DNA from: a virus
Strand: one strand, 5' to 3'
Length of the DNA stretch: 20,192 bases
Virus record (IMG/VR): IMGVR_UViG_3300032245_000033
Location: 1-20,192 of that record
Under the pieces are notes generated by a model. It was not told the DNA's origin. It worked only from the letters and a program-made list of their open reading frames with translations, and ran no database searches. A program made the position numbers and the translations under genes. Below, in pieces: positions 8,723 through 20,192 of this stretch. Position 1 is the stretch's first letter. Each line of letters begins with the position of its first letter.

Positions 8723-9204
8723 GTTTGTTCAACCCTTGGGTACTGCTTGGTATCTTGATGGCTGTGGTGTCTTCCTTTGGTGGTGGTTATTACAAGGGAA
8801 GCACTGACGAGGTGACAAGGCAACAGTTAGAGATTGCCGCCCTTAATGCTGAAGCCAGACAAAAAGAACAGGCACTTGTCACCGCCATCCAAACTCAAGC
8901 AGATCAACTCGTAAAGGCCAACAATGAAGCCAAAGTTTTATTACAAAAGCGTAATTCTGACATCGACACTGGTGCTCTCAAGTTGCGGATTCCTGTCAAA
9001 GCCGCCAACTGCCCCGTACAAACCGCCGACAATCCCACCCCTGCCAGCGGAAATAGCGTTCAAGCAACAGCCGAACTTGACAGAGAGATTGCTAAATCTC
9101 TTGTCGCCATCACAGACCAAGGAGATGCCAACACAAGGCAACTCAACGCCTGTATTGACGCCTACAACGCCGCCTACCAAACCATAACGAAAGGAAACCA
9201 ATGA
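8719..9204 (+). CDS. Rz: Rz-like inner-membrane spanin
   Basis: A 161-residue protein with an N-terminal signal anchor ([20 protein letters not shown], residues 8-27) followed by a long charged helix (about 30-80) and a periplasmic C-terminal part with two Cys (CPVQT and NACIDAYN). This is the i-spanin layout: anchored in the inner membrane with a coiled coil spanning the periplasm. An o-spanin is embedded in its +1 frame, and it lies between the holin candidate and the endolysin, which supports the call. ATGA overlaps join it to both neighbours. Confidence 0.85.
8924..9187 (+). CDS. Rz1: Rz1-like outer-membrane spanin lipoprotein, embedded in Rz
   Basis: An 87-residue protein wholly inside the Rz gene in another frame. 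It has a basic N-terminus (MKPKFYYK), a short hydrophobic stretch and the lipobox LSSC with Cys21. The mature protein is rich in proline ([17 protein letters not shown]...TPTTPPTKP), as expected for Rz1. AAGG sits about 8 bases before the ATG. With Rz it should fuse inner and outer membranes at lysis. The signal, proline content and nesting together make this secure. Confidence 0.85.
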
Positions 9205-9812
9205 ACACCGAACAACTAGCCAAAATCCTTAAGATGAAACCCGCCAAAGCTGGTGAATGGATTGATGCCATTAACGCCACCTTTGAGAAGTTCGACATCT
9301 CCACCCCTGAACGTCAAGCCTGTTTCTTGGGTCAATGTGCTCATGAATCTGGCGGCTTTACAGCCCTGTCAGAGAACCTCAACTATTCGGCGGCTTCACT
9401 GTGCAGAGTCTGGCCTAAACGGTTCCCTACCGTGACAGATGGTCAGAACTATGAACGTAACCCCCAGAAGATTGCAAATAAGGTTTACGCCAATCGCATG
9501 GGTAACGGTGACGAGGAGTCAGGTGAAGGGTTCGCCTATCGTGGTCGTGGCCTCATTCAATTGACTGGTAAATCGAACTACGAAGCCTGTGGAGAGGCTA
9601 TCGGTGTTGACTTGGTGTCTAACCCTGACTTGGTGGCAACGCCTGAGTATGCGACTTTATCTGCTGGTTGGTTCTGGGACAAAAACAACCTGAACAAGTT
9701 TGCTGATGAAAATGATATGACTGGCTTGACCAAAAAAATCAACGGTGGCACTCACGGCATTGAAGACCGTGTTGCTAGGACTCAGCTTGCACTGGATGTG
9801 TTGTCTGCTTAA
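9201..9812 (+). CDS. GH19 chitinase-type endolysin
   Basis: A 203-residue protein of the glycoside hydrolase family 19 type used as phage endolysin. Diagnostic stretches are [13 protein letters not shown] (41-53), where Glu49 is the likely catalytic acid, and [16 protein letters not shown] (112-127), the family's best-known block. The ending [14 protein letters not shown] is also typical. It would cleave peptidoglycan glycan strands after the holin opens the membrane. No signal peptide is visible, so it needs the holin. The start overlaps the Rz stop (ATGA, 9201-9204). Its last 38 bases overlap the oppositely oriented gene ending at 9775. Confidence 0.9.
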
Positions 9813-12483: not shown

Positions 12484-12714
12484 ATGAACACACAAACCAT
12501 GCAACTTATTGATTCCATTAGGGAAAAGGCTGAAAAGGCTGGCTTCACCATCACTGATGTGGCTCGTCAAGCTGGTCTTGACCCCTCTCAGGTCAGCCGT
12601 TACGCCACTGGAAAGACCATACCACTGGTAACCAGCATCAAACGGCTAGAAGAATCGGTAGATTCCCTCATTCAGAGCCGTTTACAAGCCCTGCAAGGGG
12701 GTCAAAATGACTAA
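12484..12714 (+). CDS. Cro/CI-like helix-turn-helix regulator
   Basis: A 76-residue protein with a helix-turn-helix of the XRE type at residues 21-47 (FTITDVARQAGLDPSQVSRY, then ATGKTIP), the second helix reading PSQVSRYATG. Such small DNA-binding proteins act as dimers on palindromes. There is no C-terminal LexA-like peptidase domain, so it is closer to Cro than to full CI. It is the first gene of the rightward block and probably acts on the palindrome at 12375-12394 and on its own promoter. It overlaps the next gene by 8 bases. The binding partner is inferred. Confidence 0.75.
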   Translation: MNTQTMQLIDSIREKAEKAGFTITDVARQAGLDPSQVSRYATGKTIPLVTSIKRLEESVDSLIQSRLQALQGGQND

Positions 12715-13180
12715 GCGCACCTTGGGTATTGACGTTGGTCTTAACGGTGCTATCGCCTTGGTTCAGGATGGTGAACTTGTTGGTGTTGTAGATATGCCAA
12801 CAGTCACCCTTGACCGTAATGGCAAAGCCAAGCGTCAGGTGTCAGTGCCTGAGTTGGTAGACATCATTAAAGCATTTGACCCTGATGAAGCCTATGTAGA
12901 AAAGGTCTTTGCGATGGCAGGGCAAGGCGTGACATCTGTTTTTTCTTTTGGTCGTTCTCTTGGCGTGGTCGAAGGAGTCCTAACAACTCTCAAGATCAAA
13001 ACAACTCTCATGACTCCACAGACTTGGCAAAAAGGTCTTGGCATGACAGGTGGTAAAGATGGCTCAAGAGCCAGAGCAATGGAGTTGTTCCCTGAACATA
13101 CTGCACTCTTTAAACGTGTTAAAGATGATGGTCGTAGTGATGCCGCACTCATCGCCTTGTGGGGGTCAAAGCATGGCTAA
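12707..13180 (+). CDS. RuvC-like Holliday junction resolvase
   Basis: A 157-residue RNase H-fold protein. The N-terminal strand GIDVGLNGAIALV carries Asp9; YVEKVFAMAGQGV (63-75) carries Glu65; KDDGRSDAALIALWG (139-153) carries Asp141 and Asp145. These are the four acidic positions of RuvC-type junction-specific endonucleases, and the length is normal. It should resolve branched intermediates before packaging or during recombination. It starts after GGGGGTC, overlapping the HTH gene by 8 bases, and overlaps the next gene by 8. Confidence 0.8.
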   Translation: MTKRTLGIDVGLNGAIALVQDGELVGVVDMPTVTLDRNGKAKRQVSVPELVDIIKAFDPDEAYVEKVFAMAGQGVTSVFSFGRSLGVVEGVLTTLKIKTTLMTPQTWQKGLGMTGGKDGSRARAMELFPEHTALFKRVKDDGRSDAALIALWGSKHG

Positions 13181-14005: not shown

Positions 14006-14230
14006 ATGGATGACAAAGAACGTCAGGTGATGCGTGACCACATTGTTTGGTTGTCTCAGCAACTTGAACAAGAACGCAAGCAAAACCAATCAACAGTCGT
14101 GTTCCTCAAACGGTTCCTTGATCCTGAAGACTTGGGTCATGCAGTATCAAACGAAATAAGGCAACTCGCCTACCAATTACTCTTCAACCATCATCACATT
14201 GAAAGAGACACATGGCAACAAAGCAACTGA
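14006..14230 (+). CDS. Small helical protein of unknown function (74 aa)
   Basis: A 74-residue protein starting at ATG 14006, with GGAGA nine bases upstream. It begins MDDKERQVMRDHIVWLSQQL and continues as a charged helix with a His-rich end (FNHHHIERD). It sits between the PP-loop protein and the nuclease and overlaps the latter by 19 bases, so expression is linked. No recognised family. The shape could suit an adaptor or regulator of a neighbouring enzyme, which is inference. Confidence 0.6.
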   Translation: MDDKERQVMRDHIVWLSQQLEQERKQNQSTVVFLKRFLDPEDLGHAVSNEIRQLAYQLLFNHHHIERDTWQQSN

Positions 14231-15300
14231 ACTTGAGAGCATCAGCATCATCACGTTGGATAGCCTGTCCCGCCTCTGCCAAGTTGTCAGCACAAATGCC
14301 CTATGTGGAGAGTGGCGAGGCGGCGAAGATAGGTACAGCGATTCATTCATTGGCAGAGCACTGCTTCAAAGGTGACCTTGACCCTACAAAGTTTGAAGGC
14401 CAAGTCTATGAAGGCATCACAATGACTGAGGAGAATTGTGAGTTTGCCCTTGAACATCTCAAAGCCATCTGGAAGATAGAAGATGAACTTGGTGCTGGCA
14501 GTGTTCAGGTTGAACAATTCATCCCCTATCAGGACACACAAGTCTGCAAGGTGGGTGGCACGACTGACGTTATCGGCATCAGCAAAGAGAAGCGCAAACT
14601 CATCATTGCTGACTTGAAAACTGGTCGTGGCTACGTTGACGCTGACAGTGAACAACTCAAGCTCTACGCCCTGTCAGCCCTCAATCAGAACAACTTGTTT
14701 CGGGACATCTCGACTGTTGAACTGTGGATTGTTCAACCCCATCATGGTGAGTTGCGTAAGCACTCGATGACGATTCAGGAGTTGGTTGATTGGGAGCATT
14801 ACATCTTGATGCCAGCTATTGAGAATGCCTTGAACCCTGCATATCCACCAACACCATCGGATTCAGCCTGTCAGTATTGCCCCGCTAAGACTATTTGCCC
14901 TGCACAGCAACAGATTGTTGAAGTGGTTGCATCTGCGCCACCAATTGCAGTGCTTACAGAGCAACAGATTAGCGTCTTGCTGGCGCAATTTGATATGGTT
15001 GAGGACTACATCAAGGCAGTGAGAGATCATGCCTTAAAACGCATGGAATCAGGCGCTGTCATTGATGGATGGCAACTCACGCCCAAGAGAGCATTGCGTT
15101 CATGGACAAAAGAATCAGATGTTGTTCCTGCACTCTTGTCCTTGGGACTCACCATAGATCAGATCGTCAAGCAAGAACTCATCACTCCTGCACAAGCGGA
15201 GAAACTGTTACCGAAAGACTTGAAGCAATCTATTGAACCGTTAACTTCCCGCATATCTTCAGGATTAACGCTTGCAAGAGACAAAGGTTTGACTCAATAA
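14212..15300 (+). CDS. Fe-S Cas4/RecB-like nuclease (DUF2800 type)
   Basis: A 362-residue protein of the DUF2800 family, part of the PD-(D/E)XK nuclease superfamily. Visible are GTAIHSLAEH (41-50), GGTTDVIG (115-122, Asp119), IADLKTGRG (132-140, Asp134 and Lys136) and the QLKLYA motif (148-153). Four cysteines, Cys19 near the N-terminus and C220, C223, C229 in ACQYCPAKTICP, copy the 4Fe-4S arrangement of Cas4 and AddB. It is a probable 5' DNA exonuclease working with the SSB and resolvase in recombination. The active-site and Fe-S calls are read from the sequence; the activity is inferred. Confidence 0.8.
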   Translation: MATKQLNLRASASSRWIACPASAKLSAQMPYVESGEAAKIGTAIHSLAEHCFKGDLDPTKFEGQVYEGITMTEENCEFALEHLKAIWKIEDELGAGSVQVEQFIPYQDTQVCKVGGTTDVIGISKEKRKLIIADLKTGRGYVDADSEQLKLYALSALNQNNLFRDISTVELWIVQPHHGELRKHSMTIQELVDWEHYILMPAIENALNPAYPPTPSDSACQYCPAKTICPAQQQIVEVVASAPPIAVLTEQQISVLLAQFDMVEDYIKAVRDHALKRMESGAVIDGWQLTPKRALRSWTKESDVVPALLSLGLTIDQIVKQELITPAQAEKLLPKDLKQSIEPLTSRISSGLTLARDKGLTQ

Positions 15301-15310
15301 TCACACCCCC

Positions 15311-16000
15311 ATGAACACAAGAATCGAAACAATCGGAGATGCAACGCTGTACTTGGGCGACTGCATGGACATTCTGCCCACATTGCCACAAGTTGATTCT
15401 GTTGTCACAGACCCACCTTACGGCATGAATTTTCAAAGTAACTTTAGAGTTGAGAAGCATTTAAAAATCGCAAATGATGACAGTTCTTTTATTGCCAACA
15501 GAATTATTCATTGGTCAATACAAAACGCATCTCATTCAATTTATGCCTTTGGGAGATGGGACAATATTTATGACTACCCAAAACCCAAGAGCCTCATAAC
15601 ATGGGTCAAAAATAATTGGTCTATGGGTGATCTTGAGCATGAACACGCTAGGCAAACTGAGGTTGCATTTTTTTACGCCTTGCAAGATCATTTTTTTCCA
15701 AAGCAAAGACCAACAGATGTAATAGAGTGGGCTAGAACAAAAAATGAATTTCATCCTACAGAAAAACCCGTGGGGTTGATGTGCAAATTTATCGAATGGA
15801 CTTCAGGTGTAGTCCTCGACCCATTCATGGGTAGTGGAACAACAGGAGTTGCCGCTATACAAATGGGGCGAAAGTTCATAGGCATTGAACGTGAGCCAAA
15901 ATACTTTGACATTGCTTGCCAGCGAATTGAGCAAGCCGTTGCTCAACCAAGATTGTTTGAAGATGTAAGACCCAAGCAAGAGCAAGCATCTTTAATATGA
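15311..16000 (+). CDS. Orphan N6-adenine/N4-cytosine DNA methyltransferase
   Basis: A 229-residue methyltransferase of the N6_N4 family. TDPPYG (33-38) is the catalytic motif IV and DPFMGSGTTG (170-179) is the S-adenosylmethionine-binding motif I, in the order of the beta class. HPTEKP at 148-153 is also typical. The recognition domain lies between, and that stretch of DNA (about 15430-15760) is visibly richer in A/T and T-runs than its surroundings. No restriction nuclease is next to it. It has no Shine-Dalgarno (CACCCCC precedes the ATG), and a start at 15339 is possible. The likely role is to protect phage DNA or mimic host methylation. Confidence 0.85.
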   Translation: MNTRIETIGDATLYLGDCMDILPTLPQVDSVVTDPPYGMNFQSNFRVEKHLKIANDDSSFIANRIIHWSIQNASHSIYAFGRWDNIYDYPKPKSLITWVKNNWSMGDLEHEHARQTEVAFFYALQDHFFPKQRPTDVIEWARTKNEFHPTEKPVGLMCKFIEWTSGVVLDPFMGSGTTGVAAIQMGRKFIGIEREPKYFDIACQRIEQAVAQPRLFEDVRPKQEQASLI

Positions 16001-16714: not shown

Positions 16715-18742
16715 ATGTCAGCACAAGAATTAGCCACTACGCTTGGAAACGCCAAGAAAGTAGGGAATGGTTACTTAGCATCTTGCCCTGTACCCTCACA
16801 CGGTCAAGGTAACGGCGACAAGCATCCAAGCCTTTCCATCACTGAATCAGCAGATGGGAACTACCTATTCAAATGTCACGGTGGATGCGATCAGCACACC
16901 GTATTTAACACGATCAAGGAAATGGGACTTCTCCCTGCCCTACCCCAACAAGATAGACCCGAATACCTATCAAGTATCAAACCGCTACCCTACATCCAGA
17001 CACCGACATTCCAACAGGAGTGGCATTACACCGATGAAGATGGTGTCAGTCTGTTCGTGAAGCAAAGATTCAAGACAAACGACACCAAGGGCAAGACATA
17101 CAAAACTCTGAGAGTCATGCCTGACAACTCAAGGGTTGGGAAATTGGGAGATTGCAGAATTGTCCCCTACAAGCTACCCGATCTGCAACAGGCAACAGCC
17201 GCTGGACGAGTTGTCTACATCACTGAAGGTGAGAAGGCGGCAGATGCCTTGGGCAGTTTGGGTGTGGTAGCTACAACAAGTCATGCTGGTTCAGGGTCGT
17301 GGAATCCTGAGTTGAATCAATACTTCACAGGTGCAAACGTGGTCATCGTGCCTGACAACGATGTCTCAGGCTGGAGTTACGCTACCAAGGTGGTGGAGGC
17401 ACTTCTACCAGTTGCTAAGAGTGTGAGAGTCTTGGATTTGGGACTTAATGAGCCTAAAGAAGATGCTTTTGAATGGGTCAATAAGTATGGTGGCGTTAGG
17501 GAAACATTGGCTTCAATGGCTAGAGCCTGTACCCCGATAACGCAAATCTATCAGGTTCAGCCACCAGATAGGTTAACTGTTCAGCCTGAAGTTGAAGCAT
17601 CTCAGGACGCAAATACCCAAAAATCACGGTTTCTGGTCGAGTCTTGGGATTCCATTAAGGATGAGCCAGTAGAGTGGCTCATAGAAGACATCATACCGAG
17701 ACGAGCATTTGTAGCCTTGTATGCACCACCAGCTAGTTACAAGTCATTCATTGCCCTTGATATGGCTGAGGCGATAGCTACAGGCCGTGACTGGATGGGT
17801 AAAGCCGTTAAGCAGTCAGGTGTGGTGCTGTACATAGCGGGTGAAGGTCATGGAGGACTAGGCGCAAGGATTAAGGCTTGCAAGATCAAGAATGACAGCC
17901 CCGATGGTGCTCCTTTGTACGTCATCAGGGCGCAAATCAACCTGAGATCGTCACAGGAAGACTTTGACAATTTAATCAGCGCAATCAACGACTTACTTGA
18001 GGAAATTGGACAACCACTTGTAATGATCGTTCTAGATACGCTAATGAGGATGTCTGGAGGTGGCTTTAACGAGAACAGTTCTGAAGATATGGGTGGTTTC
18101 ATCACCCAAGCTGGCAAGCTACAAGCCTTATACGACTGTGCTTTGCTAGTCATCCATCACAGCGGTAAGGACGTAACAAAGGGACTGCGAGGACATAGTT
18201 CCCTACTTGGAGCCGTAGACACTGAACTTGAGATTAACCGCCTAGATTCGGTCATCAACACTGGTGACCCATCAGTTAAAGGCTCAGGAACTATCACCGT
18301 GACCAAGCAAAAAGATGGGTCAGATGACATTGCGATTGGCTTTGATGTCGTGGCAATTGATGTCTCAATGTCAGCATTGGGGTTCGAATCCATCACCTCT
18401 TTAGCTGTTCAGGCCAACACTGAGATCGTCCAGACAACAAAGAAGAACGCTAAAAACAATGCTGGAAGTGGTGGAAATCAGCGTTTGGAGATGGATTCAC
18501 TCATGAAAGTGATTAAGGCTAAAGCATCATATCGTGAAGTAGATGGTACTAACAGGTATGGCGTGAGTTTGGAGGCTTGGAGGGATGAATTTTGGAGCAT
18601 GAAGGGTTGCACGAATGACGATAAGGCGGCGTTTCAGAAGGCTTGGACACGTGCAAGGGAGAGACTTGTGGACGCTAAAAAGATTGTCATTGGTCAGGGA
18701 TTTGTCTGGTTGAAGACAGATTTGGAGAGGTTTGGAGCATGA
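16715..18742 (+). CDS. Primase-helicase fusion (zinc finger, TOPRIM, RepA-like ATPase)
   Basis: A 675-residue replication protein with three parts. A zinc finger: C24, H29, C54, C58 (SCPVPSH and FKCHGGC). A TOPRIM-like region: ITEGEKAADAL (169-179) with Glu171, and VPDND (212-216). A RecA/RepA-type ATPase from about 310: ALYAPPASYKSF (334-345) is the Walker A loop with Lys343-Ser344 but Ala and Tyr where glycines are usual, MIVLDTL (437-443) is Walker B, and IHHSGKD (480-486) follows. It should prime and unwind phage DNA like T7 gp4. The TOPRIM may only bind DNA if degenerate. The C-terminal ~90 residues look like a winged helix. Its stop overlaps a small ORF (ATGA). Confidence 0.85.
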   Translation: MSAQELATTLGNAKKVGNGYLASCPVPSHGQGNGDKHPSLSITESADGNYLFKCHGGCDQHTVFNTIKEMGLLPALPQQDRPEYLSSIKPLPYIQTPTFQQEWHYTDEDGVSLFVKQRFKTNDTKGKTYKTLRVMPDNSRVGKLGDCRIVPYKLPDLQQATAAGRVVYITEGEKAADALGSLGVVATTSHAGSGSWNPELNQYFTGANVVIVPDNDVSGWSYATKVVEALLPVAKSVRVLDLGLNEPKEDAFEWVNKYGGVRETLASMARACTPITQIYQVQPPDRLTVQPEVEASQDANTQKSRFLVESWDSIKDEPVEWLIEDIIPRRAFVALYAPPASYKSFIALDMAEAIATGRDWMGKAVKQSGVVLYIAGEGHGGLGARIKACKIKNDSPDGAPLYVIRAQINLRSSQEDFDNLISAINDLLEEIGQPLVMIVLDTLMRMSGGGFNENSSEDMGGFITQAGKLQALYDCALLVIHHSGKDVTKGLRGHSSLLGAVDTELEINRLDSVINTGDPSVKGSGTITVTKQKDGSDDIAIGFDVVAIDVSMSALGFESITSLAVQANTEIVQTTKKNAKNNAGSGGNQRLEMDSLMKVIKAKASYREVDGTNRYGVSLEAWRDEFWSMKGCTNDDKAAFQKAWTRARERLVDAKKIVIGQGFVWLKTDLERFGA

Positions 18743-18909
18743 CACTACTGTATGTTTATCCACTGGACAAACCGGACAAACCAGACAAATGTCCAAATTG
18801 TCTGTCCGAGAAAATGTGGACAAACCACCTCTTGTCTATGAACAAGAGGTTTGTCCACTGTCGGTTTGTCTGTTGTCTGTTTTTGTTGATGGAGGTTAGT
18901 TATGGTTAG
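18739..18909 (+). CDS. Possible 56-aa ORF across the 9-bp repeats
   Basis: An ATG overlapping the primase-helicase stop (ATGA, 18739-18742) opens a 56-residue frame beginning MTLLYVYPLDKPDKPDKCPN, with CPNC (18-21) and a Cys/Phe/Leu-rich end (CRFVCCLFLL). The DKP repeat is encoded by the 9-bp DNA repeat. It overlaps the next gene's start by eight bases. Coupling and the CxxC argue for a gene. The repeated DNA and odd composition after residue 30 argue that it is a by-product of a non-coding element. I cannot decide. Confidence 0.35.
   Translation: MTLLYVYPLDKPDKPDKCPNCLSEKMWTNHLLSMNKRFVHCRFVCCLFLLMEVSYG
18765..18870. repeat. Cluster of 9-bp GGACAAACC repeats with a long hairpin
   Basis: GGACAAACC occurs at 18765-18773, 18774-18782 and 18818-18826, with a degenerate copy (AGACAAATG) at 18783-18791. 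It occurs inverted as GGTTTGTCC at 18848-18856 and as GGTTTGTC at 18863-18870. Within this, 18816-18835 and 18841-18857 pair over 9 and 8 bases, with a three-base bulge and a short loop, forming a strong hairpin. There is no T-run directly after it. It sits just downstream of the primase-helicase gene. Confidence 0.7.
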
Positions 18910-19549
18910 AAAAGCGTCACGTAAAGAAGTGCCAGAGGTTCAGGTTCCGAGAAGGAAGGCTTCGGATTTTGAAATTCAATCCAACGCTATTTTGGTTGAG
19001 TTGGATAAGCGCAAGGTGCAACATGAGGAAAAATGGGGTGTTGACCGATTGATTACTTTAGTTGACAGTGAGTTTAGGACGAAGTTTTGGGGTCAGATGG
19101 GTAGAGTTTGGGACTCGTTGGACTTTCAGGATATTGATCGGTTGAGTCGAGCCGTTCAAGGCATGGTCAAAGGTTATGACCATCTGGAGAAGTGGGCTGA
19201 GGAAAATGAGGTTGAACCTAACCCGCCGATCAGGTTCGTGGAATGGATGAACCAAAAGGGGATTCGTATGGCTGTCTGTCAGACAGTCAACGATGCGGTC
19301 AATCTACAGAACAAACGCAAAGACCTCACCATCTGGAGCATGGAGGAGATGGAAGTGTTCTTGAATGAGGAGATCGTTCAAGAAGTCATCAAGGTCAAGG
19401 CACTGTACCCAACTGCTAAGGTTGTCAGCTTCAAGGCCGAGGAAGGGTTTGGCAAAGGTTCAGGGTTTGAGGATATGGAGAACGATCTTCACGCCTTTGA
19501 AGGTGGTGGCGACTATGTGCCGAAGTATCGCAAGATTGGAGAGGATTGA
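18902..19549 (+). CDS. Conserved phage protein of unknown function (215 aa)
   Basis: A 215-residue protein with GGAGG six bases before the ATG. The N-terminus is basic (VRKASRKEVPEVQVPRRKAS). The segment EEKWGVDRLITLVDSEFRTK (42-61) followed by FWGQMGRVWD and a run of charged helices resembles a family of phage proteins often encoded shortly before the terminase, known to me only as hypothetical. No catalytic motif, membrane span or zinc site. The next ATG overlaps its stop (TGATG). A role in packaging or replication is a guess from position. Confidence 0.7.
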   Translation: MVRKASRKEVPEVQVPRRKASDFEIQSNAILVELDKRKVQHEEKWGVDRLITLVDSEFRTKFWGQMGRVWDSLDFQDIDRLSRAVQGMVKGYDHLEKWAEENEVEPNPPIRFVEWMNQKGIRMAVCQTVNDAVNLQNKRKDLTIWSMEEMEVFLNEEIVQEVIKVKALYPTAKVVSFKAEEGFGKGSGFEDMENDLHAFEGGGDYVPKYRKIGED

Positions 19550-19956: not shown

Positions 19957-20189
19957 TTATCAACAGGTTATCCACAGATTTAAGGTCGAGTTATGCACAA
20001 TCGTGCCGACTGGTTTCAATTCCAGTTTCATTTGCTGGTTGCGTGTAGTGCTTTCAGATATTCTGACTTAACATAATGGACATTGTGTAAAGCCAGATAT
20101 GTCAGCAACTTGTAATCGTTTAGAAAAACATCAATAGAATCAACGACTTGCAGATGTTATCCACAATATCCACAGTTGCCTGTGGATAA
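19957..20189. other. DnaA-box cluster
   Basis: The consensus box TTATCCACA occurs exactly at 19968-19976 and 20157-20165 on the plus strand and at 20181-20189 on the minus strand (TGTGGATAA). One-mismatch versions are TTATCAACA (19957-19965), TTATGCACA (19991-19999, still within the relaxed consensus) and ATATCCACA (20166-20174). Two spacings are close to one or two helical turns (11 and 23 bases between starts). Six such 9-mers in 233 bases is far above chance. Confidence 0.7.
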
Positions 20190-20192
20190 CTC

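Follow-up and report, generated by a model that had tools for sequence, protein, structure and literature searches.

What does a cluster of DnaA boxes do in a long non-coding gap of phage DNA? The window analysed here is a whole IMG/VR contig of 20,192 bp, and its right edge lies 3 bp past the last box. A preliminary description had reported three exact TTATCCACA boxes (two direct and one inverted) and three close variants within 233 bp, and re-reading gave the same positions (Table 1). TTATCCACA is the standard high-affinity DnaA box. The stretch 19957-20189 holds six boxes with at most one mismatch, three of them exact, while the maxima per 233 bp over 1000 first-order Markov shuffles of the window were three and one, ruling out chance clustering. 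Boxes 1 and 2 are separated by 2 bp (an 11-bp period), and the position of box 1 reads TTATCCACA in many relatives.

Table 1. Features of the window, with box and IHF-site offsets counted from the start of the Xer-like core.
Feature	Position	Strand	Offset (bp)	Remarks
GH19 endolysin-like protein	9201-9812			
RuvC-like resolvase	12707-13180			
DUF2800/PD-(D/E)XK nuclease	14212-15300			
N6/N4 DNA methylase	15311-16000			
Primase-helicase with AAA_25/RepA-like domain	16715-18742	+		
215-aa protein	18902-19549	+		Left of the module in the window's phage family; query for relatives
DnaA-like box 1, TTATCAACA	19957-19965	+	−109	One mismatch
DnaA box 2, TTATCCACA	19968-19976	+	−98	Exact
DnaA box 3, TTATGCACA	19991-19999	+	−75	One mismatch
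28-bp Xer-like site	20066-20093	−		Imperfect palindrome; best dif-arm PWM match of the window
XerD arm, TTATGTTAAGT	20066-20076	−		Part of the 28-bp Xer-like site
Centre, TGTCCA	20077-20082	−		Part of the 28-bp Xer-like site
XerC arm, GCTTTACACAA	20083-20093	−		Part of the 28-bp Xer-like site
IHF consensus site, AATCAACGACTTG	20138-20150	+	+72	Matches WATCARNNNNTTR at 13/13 positions
DnaA box 4, TTATCCACA	20157-20165	+	+91	Exact
DnaA-like box 5, ATATCCACA	20166-20174	+	+100	One mismatch; weakly conserved
DnaA box 6, TTATCCACA, inverted	20181-20189	−	+115	Exact

The array sits in non-coding phage DNA, as had been proposed; the gap that holds it is flanked by the primase/helicase side and by terminase genes. 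The 215-aa protein to its left has no PHROG or Pfam match and, with an AlphaFold mean pLDDT of 78, no PDB match at E <= 0.001. It has 53 relatives in IMG/VR (about 30-92% identity) and no match in INPHARED, and the array itself had no full-length match in the phages or plasmids searched. Every relative that holds the aligned intergenic region keeps the array, so the proposal survives the first objection foreseen in the preliminary description, a lack of conservation in such relatives. The suggestion that the array might continue past the window was not borne out, as relatives with longer contigs show little further extension: to the right of their arrays comes a run of G, followed by terS. This G run (such as GGGGGGGAGGGGG) is conserved between array and terS, for example in L004 shortly past the last box, and is possibly a packaging signal.

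A further element lies between boxes 3 and 4. The preliminary description was correct about the boxes and missed this Xer-like site, the IHF site and the fixed spacing, so its reading of the locus stands in part. We built a dif-arm PWM from 23 published dif sequences (PMC2731167), ignoring the centre. The core in the window scored 20.4 bits, against a mean of 7.4 and a maximum of 17.8 in 100 shuffles, and nothing else in the window matched better; the core likewise ranked first in each of the five large relatives and of the eight further loci scanned. For four of the five large genomes, some shuffles equalled the core's score, so what we weighed most was that the genomes agree with one another and that host dif matches. 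The core is present in every relative holding the region. XerCD sites are 28-30 bp long, with two 11-bp arms and a centre of 6-8 bp, the XerD arm and the inner arm bases being best conserved (PMC11724359). The core has this length, 11-bp arms, such a centre and a conserved XerD arm.

Burkholderiaceae dif reads ACTT(T/C/G)ATACGA-TGTATA-TTATGTTAAGT across five genomes, and in three relatives (L032-L034) both 11-bp arms, ACTTTATACGA and TTATGTTAAGT, are identical to it, with only the central hexamer (CAGGCA) differing. A second lineage, typified by L079, has the arms AGTGCGTATAA and TTATGTTAAAT. The psi site of pSC101 (from NC_002056) reads GGTGCGCGCAA-GATCCA-TTATGTTAAAC, and shares ATCCATTATGTTAA with the viral locus L053. 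Centres differ even between close relatives (TGTCCA, CATCCA, CGACCA, CAGGCA and others), and the dif centre TGTATA occurred in none of 102 viral sites among the matches listed, as expected for sites that recombine with their own copies. On these tested sequence features, 20066-20093 is a candidate XerCD site with accessory sequences.

Boxes, core and IHF site keep a fixed register. Sites were grouped by geometry, single-linkage clustering having merged distinct geometries. The close group shares all six box offsets of Table 1, including the inverted box at +115. Nearly all near-class sequences space boxes 2 and 3 by 23 bp and boxes 3 and 4 by 166 bp (165 bp in L021). The upstream gene, by contrast, lies anywhere from about 405 to 454 bp from box 2, a variation of some 50 bp among relatives. 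The right-hand boxes are missing from L007. More distant groups have boxes at −88/−64/+131 or −98/−74/+107, and a compact class at −29/+47, where the gap between left box and core was identical in 49 of 51 matches. The IHF site lies at +72 in the near class and at +61 or +73 in other classes; it is one mismatch off consensus in some far-class members and missing from the compact class. Between classes it moves from +72 to +61 as the main left box moves from −75 to −64, a shift of about one helical turn. Conservation was 1.9-2.0 bits in the boxes (1.1 in the box at −109), 1.93 in the XerD arm and 1.75 in the IHF site, compared with 0.9-1.3 in the spacers and 0.5-0.7 outside the module.

Other conserved or repeated elements were seen in some lineages. 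The near class, as well as L024, L040 and L053, has a second conserved motif, TCTGTAAGC, between core and IHF site at a core offset of about +45. In L079, L084 and L091 (core at L091:2682) the centre is CACCCA and boxes flank the core on either side with a period of about 11 bp. The L079-type offsets are −94, −83, −72, −61 and −49 on one side and about +119 to +153 on the other, a periodicity that would fit a DnaA oligomer. Xer-driven swapping of modules between phages found no support: pairs of sites with a conserved left and a divergent right half part at about +40 to +60, and not at the crossover.

We asked how widely boxes and Xer site occur together. The pattern GTTATCCACA-N55-85-TTMACATAATG gave at least 120 matches in IMG/VR, with the gap taking only a few discrete values, and the arrangement recurs in more than 100 uncultured tailed-phage contigs. 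Because a query that contains the boxes would be circular, a second search used the Xer arms alone. Among the matches listed, 83 of 92 distinct sites with full flanks had at least two DnaA-type boxes within 160 bp; for control windows drawn from those contigs the figure was 21 of 1789 (1.2%). No DnaA box was found within 250 bp of chromosomal host dif in any of five loci, and viral sites with canonical CGCATAA arms had such boxes in only 4 of 115 cases among the matches listed. Thus, the boxes belong to a particular module and are not a general companion of Xer sites. Three Xer sites of the group lack nearby boxes (L206, L256 and L263). Lineages that differ in their primases share the module, which mostly sits next to terminase genes and can face either way with respect to the genes. 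Separately, at least 100 viral contigs (L331 onward) carry canonical dif arms with very varied centres and almost no DnaA boxes, and possibly form a broad set of Xer-exploiting elements.

Which recombinase would act on the core? No tyrosine recombinase (PF00589) was found in 35 related records and no serine recombinase (PF00239) in 18, the control genomes being positive in both searches. A ParA-type partition ATPase was likewise found in none of 18 related records, leaving plasmid-like maintenance without independent support. Four contigs have overlapping ends: G001 over 36 bp and G015 over 123 bp, both exact, G007 over 197 bp at 98.5% identity, and G006 over 918 bp at 91%. From this overlap they appear to wrap genomes of about 34-35.5 kb that are circular or circularly permuted, and in the genomes with wrapping ends neither a tyrosine nor a serine recombinase was found. 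With no phage recombinase found, host XerCD most likely acts on the core.

On balance, we think the array is probably the accessory sequence of a phage-borne XerCD site through which the host carries out monomerisation, and it may also be an origin; this assessment draws on sequence comparisons. Host XerC and XerD would bind the 28-bp core, and host DnaA on the flanking boxes, with IHF bending 20138-20150, would fold the region into one complex. Within the folded complex, two phage copies carried by one circle would be able to recombine, converting multimers of circular replication, or the terminal redundancy of a permuted genome, into monomer circles, and the same DnaA complex may also start replication. 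Recombination of the site with its own copies, as at psi, cer and P1 lox, fits better than integration at dif, because strand exchange needs matching centres, the centres vary and avoid TGTATA, and no prophage was found. In favour of this explanation are the match to Xer sites, the conserved and fixed geometry, the company of boxes at sites sought without them, the lack of recombinase genes in the records searched and the non-dif centres. The role of DnaA as accessory factor is our inference. Counting against this explanation, some lineages carry boxes only on the XerD side, L007 is without its right-hand boxes, L206, L256 and L263 have none near their Xer sites, and boxes combined with an IHF site and AT-rich DNA are equally what an origin would show. 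It is possible, though we would lean against it, that DnaA and IHF license XerCD recombination in several uncultured tailed-phage lineages, with the nucleotide state or availability of DnaA timing the resolution of phage multimers. In the open-access literature searched we found no description of DnaA as an Xer accessory factor, or of anything of the module's kind.

It had been suggested that the phage uses host DnaA to start its replication. At a DnaA-dependent origin, DnaA and IHF would melt an AT-rich stretch where the phage primase-helicase loads, and the Xer site would be a companion for dimer resolution. Clustered TTATCCACA boxes, which some lineages repeat in tandem every 11 bp, agree with this, and so do the IHF site and the nearby primase-helicase. 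An AT-rich stretch between the boxes is clear in G007 (where AT peaks at 0.62 and the genome averages about 0.41) and G015 and weaker in G006 and G001. However, in the four relatives with overlapping ends the two flanks of the array agree in the sign of their GC skew. The preliminary description had itself offered a skew minimum as a check, and the origin fails it: the raw minimum close to the array merely marks the point at which the genome was rotated. Unidirectional replication would need no such switch. Boxes and Xer core also stay in fixed register in lineages whose primases differ, and an origin alone needs no such register. We regard an origin as the main function as rather unlikely; origin and Xer functions could coexist.

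Dif-like arms without an integrase are also what is seen in CTXphi, VGJphi and Jorvik (PMC5357621, PMC10589892), so the core might be the attP of a phage that integrates through host XerCD, with the boxes regulating integration. On the XerC side, TGTCCA and the dif centre TGTATA have TGT in common, which is what an attP of the VGJphi type would show. We nevertheless consider this improbable, given the absence of TGTATA from the 102 listed sites noted above, the many centres that differ from dif on the XerC side, and the lack of any prophage or junction among our results. The box-core pattern was found in none of 399 genomes of a beta-proteobacterial order, the flanking 215-aa protein in none of 301 genomes of the Hydrogenophaga family, and the primase gave only distant matches in 85,000 species, all in searches run without a positive control. 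Jorvik integrates at non-dif sites (PMC10589892), and either integration of that kind or a VGJphi-type reaction stays formally conceivable.

A packaging site (cos or pac), with the palindrome cut and the boxes bound by terminase, would account for the position of the module, which usually adjoins terS or terL in the lineages inspected. We judge it very improbable, as host dif and the core match in their arms, contigs continue across the core, the wrapping contigs end elsewhere as in circular permutation and not as at cos, and the orientation of the module relative to the terminase genes varies. Least probable of all, the boxes would be arm-type sites of a phage-encoded integrase or initiator that recognises the DnaA box: core, IHF site and flanking short repeats do resemble lambda attP, which has this layout, but no PF00589 or PF00239 gene was found in the records searched, and the same 9-mer, the standard DnaA box, is common to lineages with different gene content.

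Should DnaA be the accessory factor at these sites, it would be a new Xer regulator, linking replication initiation to recombination across a widespread class of phages. The Xer sites known from plasmids depend on ArgR, ArcA and PepA, those of chromosomes on FtsK. The module hints at a way for tailed phages without an integrase to deal with genomes in circular or multimeric form, and its sequence is an easy marker by which to recognise a large group of uncultured phages, probably with Burkholderiaceae as hosts.

The closest known systems are the plasmid sites psi (pSC101, XerCD with ArcA/PepA) and cer (ColE1, XerCD with ArgR/PepA), which like the module have 11-bp arms and a non-dif centre. 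The centre of psi, GATCCA, is 6 bp long, as are the non-dif centres of the phage module. Both plasmid sites and the module have a stretch of about 200 bp of host-protein sites at a fixed distance and no recombinase of their own. They differ in that cer and psi lie on plasmids and use ArgR or ArcA sites, whereas the module lies on tailed phages and its conserved elements are DnaA boxes and an IHF consensus. The accessory sequences of cer and psi are placed next to the XerC arm (PMC11724359), and those of the module flank the core or occupy its XerD side. Chromosomal dif of Burkholderiaceae has arms identical to those of L032-L034 and similar to those of the window, but it differs in its TGTATA centre and has no boxes within 250 bp in the five loci examined. 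The IMEX phages (CTXphi, VGJphi and TLCphi) and Jorvik are likewise integrase-less with dif-like sites. The module phages, in contrast to these, are tailed phages with genomes of about 34-36 kb, an array of DnaA boxes with an IHF site, centres unmatched to dif and no prophage found. The chromosomal loci oriC, datA and DARS combine DnaA boxes with an IHF site, to which the module adds a centrally placed Xer site in fixed register, without a GC-skew switch. Site-specific monomerisation or circularisation of a phage genome is described for P1 loxP/Cre (PMC2409434). P1 encodes its own recombinase, whereas none was found in the module phages. Our analysis suggests that these phages borrow host XerCD, DnaA and IHF to manage their own circular DNA.
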